From contig JACRKF010000052.1 in NCBI GenBank assembly GCA_016219865.1, positions 1 to 34,203 on the forward strand: 34,203 bases of DNA. The letters are read 5' to 3'. The DNA comes from Candidatus Woesearchaeota archaeon (GTDB lineage Archaea > Nanobdellota > Nanobdellia > Woesearchaeales > DSVV01). This document shows positions 3,241-14,430 of this stretch, one piece after another; within the stretch, counting starts at the first letter, position 1; the number at the start of each line of letters is the position of its first letter. The translations under genes and the position numbers were made by a program. Below the pieces are notes generated by a model. The model was not told the origin of the DNA. It did not search any database and saw only the letters and a program-made list of their open reading frames with translations.

Positions 3241-3329
3241 TGCGGCCGCCGGGATTCGAACCCGAACTACCGCCTTTTTGTGCCAAAAAGGCGTGGCAAG
3301 GCGGAATACTACCATTATACTACAGCCGC
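3241..3329 (-). tRNA. tRNA-Gly(GCC) with an 18-nt intron
   Basis: The 71-nt mature molecule folds fully. The acceptor stem pairs GCGGCTG with CGGCCGC. The D arm is GTAT-AATGGTA-GTAT, the anticodon stem is CCGCC/GGCGG with loop TTGCCA+A, and the T arm is TCGGG-TTCGAAT-CCCGG, followed by discriminator A73. The anticodon is GCC. An 18-nt insertion at 3276-3293 separates A37 from A38, the canonical archaeal intron site. No CCA is encoded. The intron and the 3' anticodon strand can form an alternative 9-bp hairpin (CGCCTTTTT with AAAAAGGCG), stronger than the anticodon stem itself. Confidence 0.93.
3276..3293 (-). other. Intron of tRNA-Gly at position 37/38
   Basis: The 18-nt CGCCTTTTTGGCACAAAA must be removed to leave a normal seven-base anticodon loop. 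TGCC of the exon can pair with GGCA of the intron, giving the short central helix of a bulge-helix-bulge for the archaeal splicing endonuclease. One-base sliding of the borders is possible because A occurs on both sides. Confidence 0.8.
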
Positions 3330-3414: not shown

Positions 3415-3535
3415 TGGGCCCAACCGGGATCGAACCGGTGACCTACGCCTTTCTGAGCACAGCGAAAGAAAGGCATAAGTCACCTATTCGATGCTGGCTT
3501 GTAAGGGCGTCATTCTACCGCTGAACTATAGGCCC
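3415..3535 (-). tRNA. tRNA-Val(TAC) with a 49-nt intron
   Basis: The mature 72-nt tRNA folds. The acceptor stem pairs GGGCCTA with TGGGCCC. The D arm is GTTC-AGCGGTA-GAAT, the anticodon stem is ACGCC/GGCGT around CTTACA+A, the variable loop is AGGTC and the T arm is ACCGG-TTCGATC-CCGGT, with discriminator A73. The anticodon is TAC. A 49-nt insertion at 3451-3499 follows A37. No CCA is encoded. It lies 85 bases upstream of tRNA-Gly on the same strand, so the two may be co-transcribed. Confidence 0.93.
3451..3499 (-). other. Intron of tRNA-Val at position 37/38
   Basis: This 49-nt insertion interrupts the anticodon loop after A37. Its 5' part AGCCAGC can pair with GCTGTGCT near its 3' end (one bulged T) to make an intron stem. 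It also contains TATGCCTTTCT, which is complementary over 11 bases to the intron 3' end plus the 3' strand of the anticodon stem (AGAAAGGCGTA), a competing fold like the one in the neighbouring tRNA-Gly. Confidence 0.8.
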
Positions 3536-8630: not shown

Positions 8631-9605
8631 TCATCCCCACTTCGCAAATATCTCATCATATGTCTTGATCAATTGTTCATAGCAGTAATCAACGATATCT
8701 TTATATAATAAATTCTCACTTTCTGTTAATTTTGCTTTGTGACCTTTTGATAATACAGCATAATACTTCATTTTGTCTTTATTCTTAATAATTAATGGAG
8801 GATAATTATTGCGAAGCAATATAAGATTGATCAATACTCTTCCTGTTCTCCCATTGCCATCATAAAAAGGATGGATTCTTTCAAATTTCTCATGGAATAA
8901 TGCTGATAGCGCTAACGGATGCAATTGTCGTTTGTTTTCAGCATACCATCTCATAAGAATTTCCATATCTGCTTGTATATATTTTGCATCTGTTGTATCA
9001 AAGGAAGCTCCAAAGACACGCACATTATGCTGGCGAAAACTACCTACTCGCTGATCTATGTTTTTCAAAAGCATTGCATGGATCTTAATGATTAATGCTG
9101 CTGTTATCTCAGGCTTTTCTTTGAGAATAAAATCAAAAGCATCTCGTTCGTTGATATGGTCATAGACTTCCTTGAGATCTTTGCCTTCAGGTGTTTTGTT
9201 CTCATTTAACAGAAAATTTGTTTCTTCTAAGGTGATGGTATTGCCTTCTATAGCATTAGTATTATAAACATAGGTTGTTTTAAAATCTTTAAACATATCT
9301 TGAAGGATCTTTTGGTCAAGATCATTCTGTTTTTTAATAAACTCTTCTCTTATTTCTTCTAGTTTCTGCTGTTGCGCATCTGAAAGGAATAAATCCTTCT
9401 TTTGCTGTGATTGTTTCATCATTTTTTTTATCTCCTTGATCTTATGCAATGGTATCTTCTTAATTTCCTTCAGTAGCTGTTTGTTTGTCAGCTTTTTCTT
9501 GCCAAGGTATGCAATAGTTTTCGTTCTAACTTTATCTTTATCACGCACTGAAATCCTCAAATAATAGTAACTATTGTTGCCAATAAGCTTCTTTTCAACA
9601 AACAT
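8631..9605 (-). CDS. Fic-domain AMP-transferase with its own inhibitory motif
   Basis: Fic protein of 324 residues. The catalytic motif HPFYDGNGRTGR (about residues 241-252) is intact, with the His, acidic residue and both arginines. Upstream, TNAIEGNTIT matches the (S/T)xxxE(G/N) inhibitory helix of class II Fic proteins, which blocks ATP until relieved. Such proteins AMPylate (or otherwise modify) other proteins. The first 40 residues (MFVEKKLIGNNSYYYLRISV) form a small beta segment, followed by a Lys-rich coiled region. A TATA box at 9628-9635 sits 26 bases upstream of the ATG, so the mRNA is leaderless, and two identical 12-bp repeats flank that box. The target protein is unknown. Confidence 0.92.
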   Translation of the reverse strand: MFVEKKLIGNNSYYYLRISVRDKDKVRTKTIAYLGKKKLTNKQLLKEIKKIPLHKIKEIKKMMKQSQQKKDLFLSDAQQQKLEEIREEFIKKQNDLDQKILQDMFKDFKTTYVYNTNAIEGNTITLEETNFLLNENKTPEGKDLKEVYDHINERDAFDFILKEKPEITAALIIKIHAMLLKNIDQRVGSFRQHNVRVFGASFDTTDAKYIQADMEILMRWYAENKRQLHPLALSALFHEKFERIHPFYDGNGRTGRVLINLILLRNNYPPLIIKNKDKMKYYAVLSKGHKAKLTESENLLYKDIVDYCYEQLIKTYDEIFAKWG

Positions 9606-9790: not shown

Positions 9791-10444
9791 ATGCCAAATC
9801 CAACCAAACAAATAATTCAAAGAACAATCAACAATCTGCTTCAGAAAGACATTTCTATCCAGAAAGATCTGCAGCGTAATATCATCAACACAAGAGCATT
9901 AGCAAGCTATTTCATCAAGAATTATGCATTGCAGACATCTCTTGACGCAGTAATCAGCGCAATTCGAAGATTTCAGGCAGATGAAACTTTTAAAGAGAGC
10001 AAAGAATTGCAGAATGTATTCAAAGATATGATTATTCTCACAAAGAATAATATGGTGAGCATCAAACTCAAGGATAATGCATTTGGTGATATTGCAAAAG
10101 ACTTTGTTAAGGAGCAGAAACTCAAAAAGAATCTACGATTGATAAAAACAAAAGAATACATCAGAGTTCTTGTCAGTCAAAAAGATTTTGAGAGTAAAGT
10201 AAGTGTATTCCAAAAAGATGACATTCTTGAGATGAAACAGAATTTGTGCGAGATACGTTTAGTCTTAAGCAAAGATTACAATAATACTAAGGGGATTCTT
10301 GCAAAAATCACAGCAGAACTGGCATTGTATAATGTTAATATTTATGATACAATTCTTTGTATGCCTGAAATATTATTTTATGTTGATGAAAAAGATTTAA
10401 TTGCTGCGCAGAAAGGGATTATGGAACTGCAAAATTCTGTGTAA
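9791..10444 (+). CDS. ACT-domain regulatory-like protein
   Basis: Protein of 217 residues. The N-terminal half is helical (NINTRALASYFIKNYAL-like wing, then DAVISAIRRFQ), suggesting a helix-turn-helix. The C-terminal segment ITAELALYNVNIYDTILC is typical of an ACT fold, a ligand-sensing domain. Similar HTH-plus-ACT proteins of unknown role occur in archaea. A TATA box (TTTTATAAATC) is about 27 bases upstream of the ATG, so it is leaderless. The HD phosphohydrolase gene follows 35 bases later with its own TATA-like TTTAAATA. Ligand and target cannot be inferred. Confidence 0.6.
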   Translation: MPNPTKQIIQRTINNLLQKDISIQKDLQRNIINTRALASYFIKNYALQTSLDAVISAIRRFQADETFKESKELQNVFKDMIILTKNNMVSIKLKDNAFGDIAKDFVKEQKLKKNLRLIKTKEYIRVLVSQKDFESKVSVFQKDDILEMKQNLCEIRLVLSKDYNNTKGILAKITAELALYNVNIYDTILCMPEILFYVDEKDLIAAQKGIMELQNSV

Positions 10445-10479: not shown

Positions 10480-12051
10480 ATGTTCACACCAAGAAAAAAA
10501 GGAAATGAGATAAATGATGGCATATTAAGAAATTTCAATTATCCTCCCTATCTTCTTGATCTGCTTGACTCAGCTGAGCTTCAGCGAGCACATTATGTTC
10601 GACAAAATGGATTTACAAGTATTTCTTATCCTAATCTTACTCATACGAGGAAAGTGCATCTCATTGGCACTGCGCGAAATGCTATTTTAATGTGGGGAAA
10701 CGCAAGAGCAAACACAAACTTTTATGATAAAGATATTAATTATGAATCAGTTATTTCCTCCGCAGCTTTGCTTCATGATATTGGGCATGCACCTTTCTCT
10801 CATGGATTAGAAGTACTCATTAGTGCGTTTTCAGGCAAAACTCATGAACAAGTTGCTGCTGAGATTGTAACTGGTGAGTTTTCATTATTAGAATTTTATA
10901 AAACTATTCCTGAAGGAATTATCTCAGCAGGCCAAAAAAGAATAATGATTGATTTATTGAGTGGTATTCCTTCAATCCCTGAAATATTAAGACAATATTG
11001 CATCCCTCCAGAAACTGTTGCGCAAATTATTCATAAAAAAAGGTTTGAATTGCTGCAAAAAGAAGGAAAAGGAAATGATTGCATAAGTAAAAATGCTTTT
11101 CTTAGAGAATTTATTGATGGTGATGTTATAGATGCTGACAAATTGGAGTACCTCATAAGAGATCCTAGAAATGCTGGAATTACTGAAACAAGATTTGATC
11201 CTGAATCTCTTATTGCATCCCTTGGTATTGTAGAATATGATGATAAGTATCATCTTGGTATTTCTGAGCAAGGGCTTGATCTTGTAAATCAATTATTAAC
11301 AACGCGCGCTTTTATGTATACAACAGTTTATACACATAAAACTGTCCTAAAGATTGAAGCAATGATATATGAATCTTACAAGAGATTCTTAAAATCATTA
11401 GGAAGAGAAAAGATGCAAGAATATGGGGAGTGTTTACACCTTCTTGATGATACTCAATTCGAAGCTTTTATGGGAACTAATAGCAAAGATGATATTGCGA
11501 TGAAATTACTGCTTCTTGCAAAATATGATCGAAGAAATAAATACAACATTGCTTATGGTATAAAAGGATATGAGATTACATTTAGAGAAGAAGAGAATAA
11601 TATAAAAAGAAAGATATTAGAGAAATTGTTTGCTGCTAATGGAGACACAGCAAAAGATCTTATTTCAAAAAGTATTTCTGGTGAACTCATTTTTTTAGAT
11701 GATTTCATAAGAAAAAGGATATTGGAAATGGTTAATACAAAAAATAAAGAGAAAATCGAAGATTATGAGATAATAGTTTATTTTCCTCATCCACGAAAAA
11801 TGGTTCCAAATATGCAACAATTGTATGAAAAGTTTAATCTTTATGTATTTGAAAAAAATGATCCTAAAAAAGTATATCACTCATCTAATGCTATCAAAGA
11901 TCACACTTTTTTTGATGAAAGGCTAGAAAAAGTATTTCAGTCGTTTTGTAGAGCACAAACATCATATAATTTTATAGTCTTAACTCCTGAGAAACATGTT
12001 CAGAGAGTAAAAAAAGCAACTGAAGAATATATCAAAGAATTATTGAAATAA
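10480..12051 (+). CDS. HD-superfamily phosphohydrolase (dNTPase-like, COG1078 type)
   Basis: Protein of 523 residues. The first metal histidine lies in LTHTRKVHLIGTARNAILM, the HD doublet in AALLHDIGHAPFSHGLE, and a later conserved Asp in DGDVIDADKLEYLIRDPRNA, the pattern of dGTPase/SAMHD1-like HD proteins. Members hydrolyse nucleoside triphosphates or related phosphate esters. The long C-terminal part (about 330-523) is helical with IVYFPHPRKMVPN. It is probably leaderless, with TTTAAATA about 27 bases before the ATG. A nucleoside phosphorylase gene follows 30 bases downstream, suggesting a nucleotide-salvage or nucleotide-control unit. The exact substrate is unknown. Confidence 0.85.
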   Translation: MFTPRKKGNEINDGILRNFNYPPYLLDLLDSAELQRAHYVRQNGFTSISYPNLTHTRKVHLIGTARNAILMWGNARANTNFYDKDINYESVISSAALLHDIGHAPFSHGLEVLISAFSGKTHEQVAAEIVTGEFSLLEFYKTIPEGIISAGQKRIMIDLLSGIPSIPEILRQYCIPPETVAQIIHKKRFELLQKEGKGNDCISKNAFLREFIDGDVIDADKLEYLIRDPRNAGITETRFDPESLIASLGIVEYDDKYHLGISEQGLDLVNQLLTTRAFMYTTVYTHKTVLKIEAMIYESYKRFLKSLGREKMQEYGECLHLLDDTQFEAFMGTNSKDDIAMKLLLLAKYDRRNKYNIAYGIKGYEITFREEENNIKRKILEKLFAANGDTAKDLISKSISGELIFLDDFIRKRILEMVNTKNKEKIEDYEIIVYFPHPRKMVPNMQQLYEKFNLYVFEKNDPKKVYHSSNAIKDHTFFDERLEKVFQSFCRAQTSYNFIVLTPEKHVQRVKKATEEYIKELLK

Positions 12052-12081
12052 TAATTGAAAGAATGGTTAAAAGGTGAGAAT

Positions 12082-13002
12082 ATGGGTGTTAAAGAATCTG
12101 AATTAATCATAATTGGTAATAAAATTTATCACTTGGGATTAAGTCAAGAGCAATTGGCAAAGAATATCTTTGTTGTTGGAGATCCTGCAAGAGCTGATAT
12201 TGTAGCAAGCAAATTTGATACAATTGATCATAAAGTAGAACATAGAGAGTTTATCACAAGAACAGGGACATATAAACAAATGCCTGTGAGTGTTATAGCA
12301 ACAGGTATTGGCACAGATAATAATGAAATTACACTTGTTGAAATGTTTGGATTAAACGAATTTAACTTTAGTTCACGTGAAAGAAAAGAAAATGCAGAAC
12401 CTTTAACAATCATTAGATTAGGTACATCTGGTGGCCCACAAAGAAATATTTTTGTTGGAACACTTGCAATTGCTTCTTATGCTTTAGGTTTAGATAATAC
12501 TGGAATGTTTTATGAATATCCAGCAGCAGATAGCACTGTCTTAACTATTGAAAGAGAAGCATACAGAATAATTACTGATGCAACACCTGATACAGCTCGA
12601 TTTAAAGGAAAAATCATTCCTTATGCTTCAAAAGCTTCTTCTGAAGTTGTTGATGCTTTAGTAAAATCTGCTGAAAGAGATTATGTTGTGGGAATCACTG
12701 CATCTGCTTCTGGATTTTTTGGACCTCAAGGAAGAGAAATACCTGGACTGCCAATAACTATTCCAAGACTGCAAGAACATTTGGCAACCCTTTTAGTAGA
12801 CAATAATCGTGTTGTTAATTTTGAAATGGAATCAAGTTTATTATTTCATTTAGCTGGTTTAATGGGTTATAGAGCTGGAACAATTTGTCCAATTATTGCA
12901 AATAGGCAGACAGGAGAATTCCTGGCAGATTATTCTGGAGCAGTTGAAAGATGTATTAAAGTTGGATTAGATGCAATGCTTGATTTATACAACAAAAGAT
13001 AA
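12082..13002 (+). CDS. Nucleoside phosphorylase, uridine phosphorylase family
   Basis: Enzyme of 306 residues of the PNP/UDP family, splitting nucleosides with phosphate to give a base and ribose-1-phosphate. Motifs are FVVGDPARADIV (phosphate binding), VIATGIGTDNNEI, IIRLGTSGG, and NFEMESSLLFHLAGL with the ribose-binding Met-Glu. They fit COG2820 uridine phosphorylase-like proteins. The ATG at 12082 is chosen because AAGGTGAG lies just upstream at normal spacing; a start at 12055 lacks this. The gap after the HD phosphohydrolase is only 30 bases, so the two are probably an operon. Base preference cannot be settled by eye. Confidence 0.9.
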   Translation: MGVKESELIIIGNKIYHLGLSQEQLAKNIFVVGDPARADIVASKFDTIDHKVEHREFITRTGTYKQMPVSVIATGIGTDNNEITLVEMFGLNEFNFSSRERKENAEPLTIIRLGTSGGPQRNIFVGTLAIASYALGLDNTGMFYEYPAADSTVLTIEREAYRIITDATPDTARFKGKIIPYASKASSEVVDALVKSAERDYVVGITASASGFFGPQGREIPGLPITIPRLQEHLATLLVDNNRVVNFEMESSLLFHLAGLMGYRAGTICPIIANRQTGEFLADYSGAVERCIKVGLDAMLDLYNKR

Positions 13003-13033: not shown

Positions 13034-13915
13034 CTAATTAAAAAATTTCAACAATGATCTTTTATCATGGTAGTTAGCAGCACTTCCTCTATTTGCAACA
13101 TAATCTGCTTTTTTATCTCTTATTTGTAATTCTATCACAACTGGATTATTTAATCCAGGGAACGAATAAACAACATTTAGATGTTCAGCTTCATAGCCAT
13201 TATTTTTTGGTTTTCCACCAGCAAATCGTCCATTCTTTCTATAGCTCTTTCCATCAATGACCTGAAAATTATTCTCAACAAACGGAATAACTGTATCATA
13301 AATATAATTCCAATCTCTAGAATCATCAACAATTATTCTTACACCATAAGCATCTTGAATGAAAACAGTTTTTTGATTATTTTCTTTATCATTATGGAAT
13401 CGTATTTGTTTTCCTTCAACTGTTTCCACTCTTTTTTCAGTTTCAGGAGATAGTGTCTCATAACTTAAAATTTTAGTAGCTAATCTTTCAATTGATTTTC
13501 TTCTTTGAGAAATTGCAGTAACTTTACTCTGTAGATTCATCGCTCGATAAACTATTTCATTATGCTCTTGGTCTGTTACTTGTTTATTGTAGCAATCTTT
13601 CATAAATTGATCTACAAGTAGTTGAGTAAAATGATCAAGCGTTCCGTCGCAAGCTTCAAGAATCAATTGTGCTTTTCTTCTATGAACTTGTTCTTCATAA
13701 GGGAGATGCAGCACAGATGCTGCTACTGCCATCCCTATGTTTTGAACTAATCCATCTTCTTGTTGACTTATTCTAGAAAAATCAACTACTGCTAATGAAC
13801 TCCATGTAATATATTCAGATCGTAATTGAACTCCTTCTCGTTCAACTACACTGCACAAACTTTGCCTTCTACACCCAGAAATATTACTTTCATTATATTC
13901 TTGCATTACCATCAA
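13034..13915 (-). CDS. RelA/SpoT-like alarmone synthetase domain protein
   Basis: Protein of 293 residues. Residues about 135-290 match the RelA/SpoT nucleotidyltransferase domain. R138, K140 and K148 have the R-x-K-x7-K spacing of the ATP-binding loop. D188 in IQDAYGVRIIVDD aligns with the Mg-binding Asp, Y241 in KNNGYEAEHLNVVY with the GTP-stacking Tyr, and E262 in VIELQIRDKK with the catalytic Glu. GSAANYHDK follows as in RelA's AAH-x-YK. No HD hydrolase, TGS or ACT part is present. Residues 1-130 are helical and unrecognised. Such domains make (p)ppGpp or act as toxic synthetases or tRNA-modifying toxins. No obvious antitoxin gene adjoins it. Start could also be the third ATG codon. Confidence 0.8.
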   Translation of the reverse strand: MMVMQEYNESNISGCRRQSLCSVVEREGVQLRSEYITWSSLAVVDFSRISQQEDGLVQNIGMAVAASVLHLPYEEQVHRRKAQLILEACDGTLDHFTQLLVDQFMKDCYNKQVTDQEHNEIVYRAMNLQSKVTAISQRRKSIERLATKILSYETLSPETEKRVETVEGKQIRFHNDKENNQKTVFIQDAYGVRIIVDDSRDWNYIYDTVIPFVENNFQVIDGKSYRKNGRFAGGKPKNNGYEAEHLNVVYSFPGLNNPVVIELQIRDKKADYVANRGSAANYHDKRSLLKFFN

Positions 13916-13957
13916 CCCACAAACAAATTTTTATTTCAACCCAATTTATGTAAACTG

Positions 13958-13993
13958 TCAAGAACCACTGATCAATAGATAAGTGGTTCTTGA
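13958..13993. repeat. 12-bp inverted repeat upstream of the RelA/SpoT-like gene
   Basis: TCAAGAACCACT (13958-13969) faces AGTGGTTCTTGA (13982-13993) across a 12-base spacer. It lies 43 bases before the start of the synthetase gene. It could be a protein-binding site or the hairpin of an RNA read from the region upstream. Confidence 0.55.
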
Positions 13994-14149
13994 ATTGTAT
14001 AAAAATAAATCTATAGTAACTTAAGTGATATATAAATAATGTGACAATTATTAATTTCTTATTGTTGTTATGACATGTATTATATATTTTTGACACATAA
14101 TTTTTAATTTTCTATTTAGTTATTCTTGTTTTATTATTATTTAATCTTA
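13994..14149. other. AT-rich gene-free stretch
   Basis: This part of the 617-base gap between the synthetase gene and SRP54 is very AT-rich with long T runs. I see no coding sequence, tRNA or clear repeat in it. Confidence 0.5.
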
Positions 14150-14158
14150 TCATTAACA

Positions 14159-14269
14159 TCGTAATAAGTTAGTGGTTAGTAGTGGTTAGTAGTAAGTAGT
14201 TAGTGGTAAGCTGCAAATTTGCTGCAATACTGCAAACCACTAACTACCAACTACAGACTTATTACGTGC
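14159..14269. mobile_element. MITE-like palindromic element, copy A
   Basis: An approximately 105-bp imperfect palindrome (core 14161-14265) begins GTAATAAGTTAGTGGTTAGT and ends as the near-complement of that. It is about 85-90 percent identical to the reverse complement of 31846-31941. It is bracketed by the direct repeat TCATTAACA at 14150-14158 and 14270-14278, a likely target duplication. Compared with the other copy it has a small internal duplication in the TTAGTAG-rich left arm. It has no coding capacity, so mobility would need an enzyme supplied elsewhere. Confidence 0.75.
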
Positions 14270-14342
14270 TCATTAACAAAAACTTACCCTACCAGTATAC
14301 AAAAACGTAACATTTATATACTAGTTGCATCTATATAATTAG

Positions 14343-14430
14343 ATAAGGGATGCAAGTGGCTTTTTACTCTCATCCTTATTCTCATACCCAACCCCCATAA
14401 CGAGTAAAAGGCCACCAAACCTTTTTTATT
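14343..14430 (+). ncRNA. Candidate structured RNA upstream of SRP54
   Basis: A TATA box (CATTTATATAC, 14313-14320) predicts transcription from about 14343. The transcript would contain a perfect 14-bp stem (with one G-U), GTGGCTTTTTACTC with GAGTAAAAGGCCAC, closing a 32-nt pyrimidine-rich loop, then CAAAC and a run of six T. A second option pairs ATAAGGGATG at the 5' end with CATCCTTAT in the loop (one bulge), giving a pseudoknot or a switch. The segment also contains a 16-codon ORF starting ATGCAAGTGGC, so an attenuator-like leader is an alternative reading. It does not resemble SRP RNA or RNase P RNA. Confidence 0.55.

Follow-up and report, generated by a model that had tools for sequence, protein, structure and literature searches.

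The window, a stretch of 34,203 nucleotides from a Woesearchaeales (DPANN) archaeon with a tiny genome, encodes a short protein of the RelA/SpoT-homologue (RSH) superfamily whose only recognised domain is the synthetase (SYNTH) domain. The protein is the product of a real gene of this known superfamily, and chance is excluded as the source of its membership through the SYNTH domain. It is best explained, with somewhat better than even confidence, as a monofunctional enzyme, in function a divergent small alarmone synthetase (SAS), in a cell that also has a complete bifunctional Rel, with GDP/GTP as the predicted acceptor and (p)ppGpp as the product. The gene and its parts lie as follows.

13034 to 13915, minus strand: SYNTH-only short RSH gene, 293 aa long with TTG 13915 as start codon and 292 aa with ATG 13912
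13526 to 13915, minus strand: N-terminal part, residues 1-130, helical and fast-evolving, without a Pfam or NCBIfam match
13037 to 13525, minus strand: SYNTH domain, residues 131-293, marked out by PF04607, a 36-sequence alignment, a dN/dS of 0.21 and Foldseek matches to RelQ, RelP and Rel
13472 to 13504, minus strand: R138-x-K140-x7-K148, the phosphate-binding motif for ATP (the pyrophosphate donor), invariant or nearly so
13355 to 13471, minus strand: 39 residues between K148 and D188, an insertion found within the family only in the window's genus
13352 to 13354, minus strand: D188, the catalytic Mg-binding aspartate, invariant in the 36 sequences and in all five family members
13181 to 13195, minus strand: Y241-x3-H245, the acceptor-loop tyrosine and histidine (NGYEAEH), invariant in both alignments
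13118 to 13132, minus strand: E262-x-Q264-x-R266, the catalytic and adenine-recognition strand motif, which only the window's genus has retained, the two other genera having lost it
14028 to 14046, minus strand: TATA-like box GTCACATTATTTATATA upstream of the RSH gene, kept in the sister species

Residue numbers count from TTG 13915 and are one lower when taken from ATG 13912; ATG 13906 is a further alternative start. The stretch GGGTTGATGGTAATGCAA is kept in the sister species. The RelA/SpoT synthetase domain that a sequence-only reading had assigned to this frame, with a profile search as the proposed check, is recovered by PF04607 (RelA_SpoT), which matches residues 178-283 at E=2.2e-11 and 44.5 bits, the gathering cutoff being 27. 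The orthologue of the sister species matches the same profile independently (E=3.9e-10). In agreement with that reading, Pfam finds no HD, TGS or ACT domain in the protein, which lacks the HD-SYNTH-TGS-ACT architecture of long RSHs and has the SYNTH-only architecture of an SAS. The window is archaeal because FttA, a proteasome subunit and SRP54 are encoded on it, and the DPANN-like host that had been suspected belongs to the Woesearchaeales, with ‘Candidatus Woesearchaeota archaeon RIFCSPHIGHO2_02_FULL_32_12’ as congener. The TATA-like box presumably acts as the promoter of the RSH gene. Two inverted repeats, at 13957-13992 and 14184-14259, also lie upstream of the gene, and the sister species has neither; the first (z=-3.6) would sit in the RSH 5′ leader.

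Residues R138, K140, K148, D188, Y241, H245 and E262, earlier aligned with the nucleotide-handling residues of RelA/SpoT synthetases, are each found exactly at the position given for them. The 36-sequence SYNTH alignment shows no variation at K140, K148, D188, Y241 and H245 and at least 90% conservation at R138, R193, K237, E262, Q264 and R266. The catalytic set of R-x-K-x7-K, D, Y-x3-H and E-x-Q-x-R is complete in the window's genus, and the donor set corresponds to residues R64, K66, K74, D90, R95, E145 and Q147 of the FaRel2 donor site (PMC11782079). The spacing from K148 to D188 is about 27 residues longer than in the Rel of the same cell. The acceptor loop is devoid of the usual KDY, reading NGRFAGGKPKNNGY where RFKDYIxxPKxNGY is expected, and its tyrosine is common to tRNA-modifying toxSASs (FaRel2 Y128), so that specificity for GTP stands as a prediction.

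A structure prediction from two sequences reaches a pLDDT of 40.6, and the model built from the 36-sequence alignment reaches 71.6 with a pTM of 0.66, most core elements lying at 80-94. Compared with the PDB by Foldseek, the model matches RelQ (5ded, pppGpp-bound), RelP (6ewz) and RelSeq/Rel (1vj7) with probability 1.00 and E of about 3e-6 to 1e-4, followed by CapRel at 2e-3, a bacterial exported synthetase at 8e-3 and FaRel2 at 2e-2. Because the alignment behind the model contained other RSHs, the agreement in fold does not count as evidence separate from the sequence similarity; the best PDB sequence match, likewise to RelQ, is weak (E=0.07). The refuting outcome named in the sequence-only reading, D188 and E262 lying outside one active site, did not arise from these matches, and a shared site for the two residues stands as a prediction. 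The window RSH shares with RelQ/RelP (SAS1/SAS2; B. subtilis YjbM/YwaC, S. aureus RelP) the SYNTH-only architecture, the donor- and acceptor-site residues and the top rank in both comparisons, but it is only about 17% identical to them over the structural alignment, has an N-terminal extension, lacks KDY, carries the extra K148-D188 residues (relative to Rel) and lies outside their clade. In a tree of 125 columns, from which RelV and other SAS subgroups were left out, it falls neither inside the Rel clade nor with RelP/RelQ; together with its orthologue it groups with other C-terminal-SYNTH archaeal proteins (89/87), a placement to be read with caution, as the branches are long. Long Rel proteins, including the cell's own, are homologous to the window RSH in the SYNTH domain and share its catalytic residues, and they differ in having HD, TGS and ACT domains. 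The divRel proteins, unplaced SYNTH-only sequences that include one from Methanosarcina acetivorans (Atkinson et al. 2011; PMC3153485), by description likewise comprise archaeal SYNTH-only RSHs outside the named clades, whereas a full-length Rel coexists with the RSH in the window's genome.

The first 130 or so residues, described from sequence as helical and unrecognised, have no Pfam family above cutoff and no NCBIfam match, and helices are indeed predicted there, with a pLDDT of about 76-95 at residues 71-110. The Foldseek alignments span about 220 columns and thus extend past the 163-residue SYNTH half, and some of the N-terminal part may be related to SASs. The RSH is 60% identical to its sister-species orthologue overall and 45% identical in the N-terminal part, whereas the neighbouring SRP54 and FttA are 94-95% identical. 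In the same comparison the two halves of the gene differ in dN/dS, the SYNTH half standing at 0.21 and the N-terminal half at 0.58, against 0.04 in SRP54 and FttA. Purifying selection acts on the gene, and the contrast with its neighbours in dN/dS and identity therefore marks it as maintained yet fast-evolving, above all at the N-terminus.

A canonical Rel of about 645 aa with HD-SYNTH-TGS-ACT architecture is encoded in the same genome (L037:16003-17940, contig C27), its domains recognised as HD_4 (E=7e-49), SYNTH (E=2e-41), TGS and ACT. Genes for ribosomal S24e, PTH2, a TsaD/Kae1-family protein and triosephosphate isomerase lie near it. This Rel is archaeal because the contig carries S24e and PTH2, and a bacterial Rel contaminating the bin is ruled out by these genes and by synteny in the congener. 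A recent origin of the window RSH as a copy of the cell's Rel is likewise ruled out, as the family profile gives this Rel a score of 2.4 bits and the RSH lies outside the Rel clade. A cell with an SAS needs an enzyme that hydrolyses (p)ppGpp (PMC3153485), and the HD_4 domain of this Rel is a predicted hydrolase. Of 145 relatives, 63 have PF04607, as do 44 of the 100 of high quality, and most of these proteins are full-length Rel; this is in line with the RelA/SpoT frequency of 41.7% reported for Woesearchaeota, where a bacterial origin was predicted (PMC8407392). An archaeal alarmone enzyme as such is therefore not new. The survey of Atkinson et al. (2011) had recorded a handful of archaeal SAS/SAH and no archaeal long RSH (PMC3153485), and (p)ppGpp was undetected in both archaeal models assayed, Haloferax volcanii and Sulfolobus acidocaldarius (PMC8646023).

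From the domain, the residues, the selection, the synteny and the Rel observed here, we infer catalysis, acceptor and N-terminal role as follows. ATP would be bound by R138, K140, K148, R193, E262 and Q264, with Mg on D188, and its β,γ-pyrophosphate would be transferred to an acceptor held against Y241, at its 3′-OH. Most likely this acceptor is GDP/GTP and the predicted product (p)ppGpp, which the HD domain of the cell's Rel could remove, so that a dedicated antitoxin would be unneeded. The fast-evolving, lineage-specific N-terminal part probably regulates when the enzyme is active, and such rapid change is also compatible with a virus sensor. The sequence-only reading had left the choice between an alarmone enzyme and a toxin lacking an antitoxin. 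The balance leans towards a synthetase rather than the toxin of a toxin-antitoxin pair because of the Rel hydrolase, a locus fixed through speciation, the lack of an antitoxin-like partner and a model nearest RelQ/RelP; an archaeal alarmone enzyme is in itself unsurprising, given the spread of such genes in Woesearchaeota and the cell's own Rel.

The main rival, possible although unlikely, is a tRNA- or ATP-targeting toxSAS-like effector, in which a trigger sensed by the N-terminal part would lead to pyrophosphorylation of the tRNA CCA end (as in FaRel2 and CapRel) or to a drain of ATP into (p)ppApp and so to cell arrest, defence against viruses being one example. Since no antitoxin gene is adjacent, the enzyme would then be inhibited in cis. 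The known toxSAS toxins (FaRel2, CapRel, FaRel, Tas1) are also SYNTH-only and use the same donor-site and catalytic residues, the SYNTH domain of the window protein lies C-terminally behind an unrecognised region, the relaxed dN/dS of its N-terminal part relative to SRP54 and FttA fits a sensor under changing pressure, and the gene is patchy within the archaeal family. Against this, the locus is chromosomal and stable, fixed among core genes and not on a mobile or viral element; CapRel and FaRel2 rank structurally behind RelQ/RelP; no YXXY motif, as in pZFD antitoxins, is seen on inspection; and, as the sequence-only reading had supposed, no antitoxin-like neighbour is common to both congeners, where no small partner gene is conserved beside the RSH. 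PADLOC gives no match for the window protein, and for its phage-defence candidate PDC-S33 even the sister protein reaches only E=0.007; PDC-S33, also a SYNTH-only archaeal RSH, forms a separate clade with its SYNTH domain nearer the N-terminus.

The reading frame 13893-14096 (minus strand), considered as a small antitoxin, was judged spurious, since it overlaps the RSH start and has no sister-species counterpart. A mobile or viral origin of the RSH was likewise rejected: two scans of the viral_contigs set yield no relatives, and phage and plasmid matches are weak (a Nitrososphaera provirus protein and a Bacteroidota Rel). The former is a Rel_Spo-like protein of the thaumarchaeal provirus Pro-Nvie1 (L121:2779-3411), where its gene is flanked by those for portal and protease/capsid; its similarity to the window RSH is weak.

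The favoured synthetase belongs to a small family that evolves fast. In the final profile search of 338 order genomes, members occur in five genomes of three genera within one archaeal family, and other weak matches lie mostly in frames of long-Rel size; a profile search of 378 class genomes gives no further members. A restriction to one genus was overturned by homologues found with an ACT-like neighbour as anchor. These lie convergent with the ACT-like gene in two genera other than the window's (348 aa in G007, 366 aa in G005 and 396 aa in G008), and two homologues left out of profile building score 80-89 bits with the family profile. The neighbours on this side of the window RSH are the following.

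9791 to 10444, plus strand: 217-aa protein whose C-terminus is weakly ACT-like; its gene and the RSH gene are convergent neighbours, an arrangement conserved in three genera
10480 to 13002, plus strand: an HD-domain gene and a PNP_UDP phosphorylase gene, which separate the ACT-like gene from the RSH gene only in the window's genome

In the congener, the RSH gene lies between a response-regulator-like gene, which adjoins SRP54, and an ACT-like protein of the 217-aa type. The remaining flanks differ between genera (SRP54 and FttA in the window's genus; on inspection, apparent uL1 and uL10 in G005 and uL1 in G008), so the RSH/ACT-like pair survives rearrangement. In G004 and G006 the ACT-like protein is present and an adjacent RSH is absent. 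The response-regulator-like gene (L058:8791-9486, minus strand; REC E=0.002, below cutoff) is divergent from the sister RSH gene and is missing at that place in the window. A Fic-domain protein with an unrecognised N-terminal part, at 8631-9605 on the minus strand of the window, has a diverged homologue (34% over 109 aa) elsewhere in the sister's locus.

All five family members agree at R138, K140, D188, Y241 and H245. In G005, G007 and G008 the E-x-Q-x-R strand reads D/N/S-V-H-L-H/Q, K148 is replaced by N in G008, and the PF04607 scores of all three fall below cutoff. Catalytically, the canonical branch of the family is thus the window's genus, with donor-site chemistry altered elsewhere, and as E262, Q264 and R266 are lost in three of the five members, the family may be drifting from catalysis. 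These same changes favour a family turning into regulatory pseudo-synthetases, whose SYNTH fold would be kept for binding a nucleotide or a partner while catalysis would be secondary or lost; both members from the window's genus retain all catalytic residues under purifying selection, and we consider this reading rather improbable. Equally doubtful is a family-specific split stringent-response module, in which the RSH would act as an alarmone (or tRNA) pyrophosphotransferase, the convergent ACT-like protein would sense amino acids separately, and new donor or acceptor specificity would arise where E-x-Q-x-R is replaced. As far as checked, the RSH family, its ACT-like neighbour and the active-site series are new. 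Intact and altered active sites at one locus offer a natural series on substrate change or loss of activity in RSHs. An exported synthetase acting on a host or neighbouring cell, like bacterial EAS and Tas1/Apk1, is highly improbable: ectosymbiotic life is frequent among DPANN archaea and bacterial EAS have a C-terminal synthetase, as here, behind N-terminal export domains (PMC12691689), but the protein has no hydrophobic leader (maximum 19-residue hydropathy 1.1), Pfam finds no known export domain, and the bacterial EAS 8vx3 is a weak Foldseek match.

Diverse second RSHs occur in Woesearchaeales besides full-length Rel, and since RSH genes are widespread in the order, it is suited to direct tests of archaeal alarmone signalling, for which the window RSH provides a compact, catalytic-looking test case. 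PADLOC assigns PDC-S33, a RelA/SpoT-type phage-defence candidate, to a Woesearchaeales protein (L043 in G026, E=4e-117), to which L044-L048 are close relatives by tree. A RelP/RelQ-type SAS (L052:4772-5521, G058 contig C70; E=3e-36 to B. subtilis YwaC) lies in a Woesearchaeales bin with 6% contamination. Stand-alone proteins weakly similar to the SpoT-type HD_4 hydrolase are encoded in the window's genome (L113:8623-9849, G000 contig C19) and in G001 (L058:3479-4705). They adjoin a fast-evolving, unrecognised protein of 442-697 aa (L113:7275-8603, L058:1300-3393) with an infB-like gene in the vicinity. In G004, G005 and G007, infB has related HD proteins (604-624 aa) nearby, and the C-terminal-SYNTH RSHs L041 and L050 are also encoded near infB.

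Between the RSH gene and SRP54, the window carries a promoter-like motif, CAGTATACAAAAACGTAACATTTATATACTAG, at 14293-14324. An order-wide form, CAGTATACNAAAACGTAACATTTATATACTAG, occurs within 2 mismatches in 89 of 338 order genomes, and the reversed control in 0 among the genomes listed. What lies downstream of the motif varies between ftsZ, a pilin-like gene, an unannotated small protein and, as in the window, a hairpin with a C-rich loop and a T-run. The hairpin follows the motif at about a dozen loci (window 14293-14427, plus strand; L128, L129, L114, L130-L132, L135, L138, L151, L152 and L155); its loop, ACCCCC, precedes the T-run, compensatory two-sided changes affect 8 of 11 pairs in an alignment of 11 hairpins, and the window copy folds with z=-5.9. 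Rfam gives only weak, chance-like matches in the RSH-SRP54 intergenic region and no family for the hairpin, which is probably an unnamed Woesearchaeales non-coding RNA missing from Rfam. Transcription of the motif-hairpin unit points away from the RSH gene, and the unit is separate from the RSH finding. Elsewhere the motif lies upstream of ftsZ-like genes (L133, L136, L139, L148, L159-L165), of type IV pilin-like genes (L157, L158, L166) and of a conserved 131-141-aa protein of unrecognised family (L134, L140, L142-L144, L146, L147), a distribution that suggests a regulon. Two tRNA genes on the minus strand of the window, at 3241-3329 and 3415-3535, are detected by Rfam and neither by ARAGORN; their spans of 89 and 121 bp suggest introns. 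The SRP54 frame of G002 (L097:8218-11376) is 1052 aa long with SRP54 matches in two separated pieces, and possibly carries an intein.
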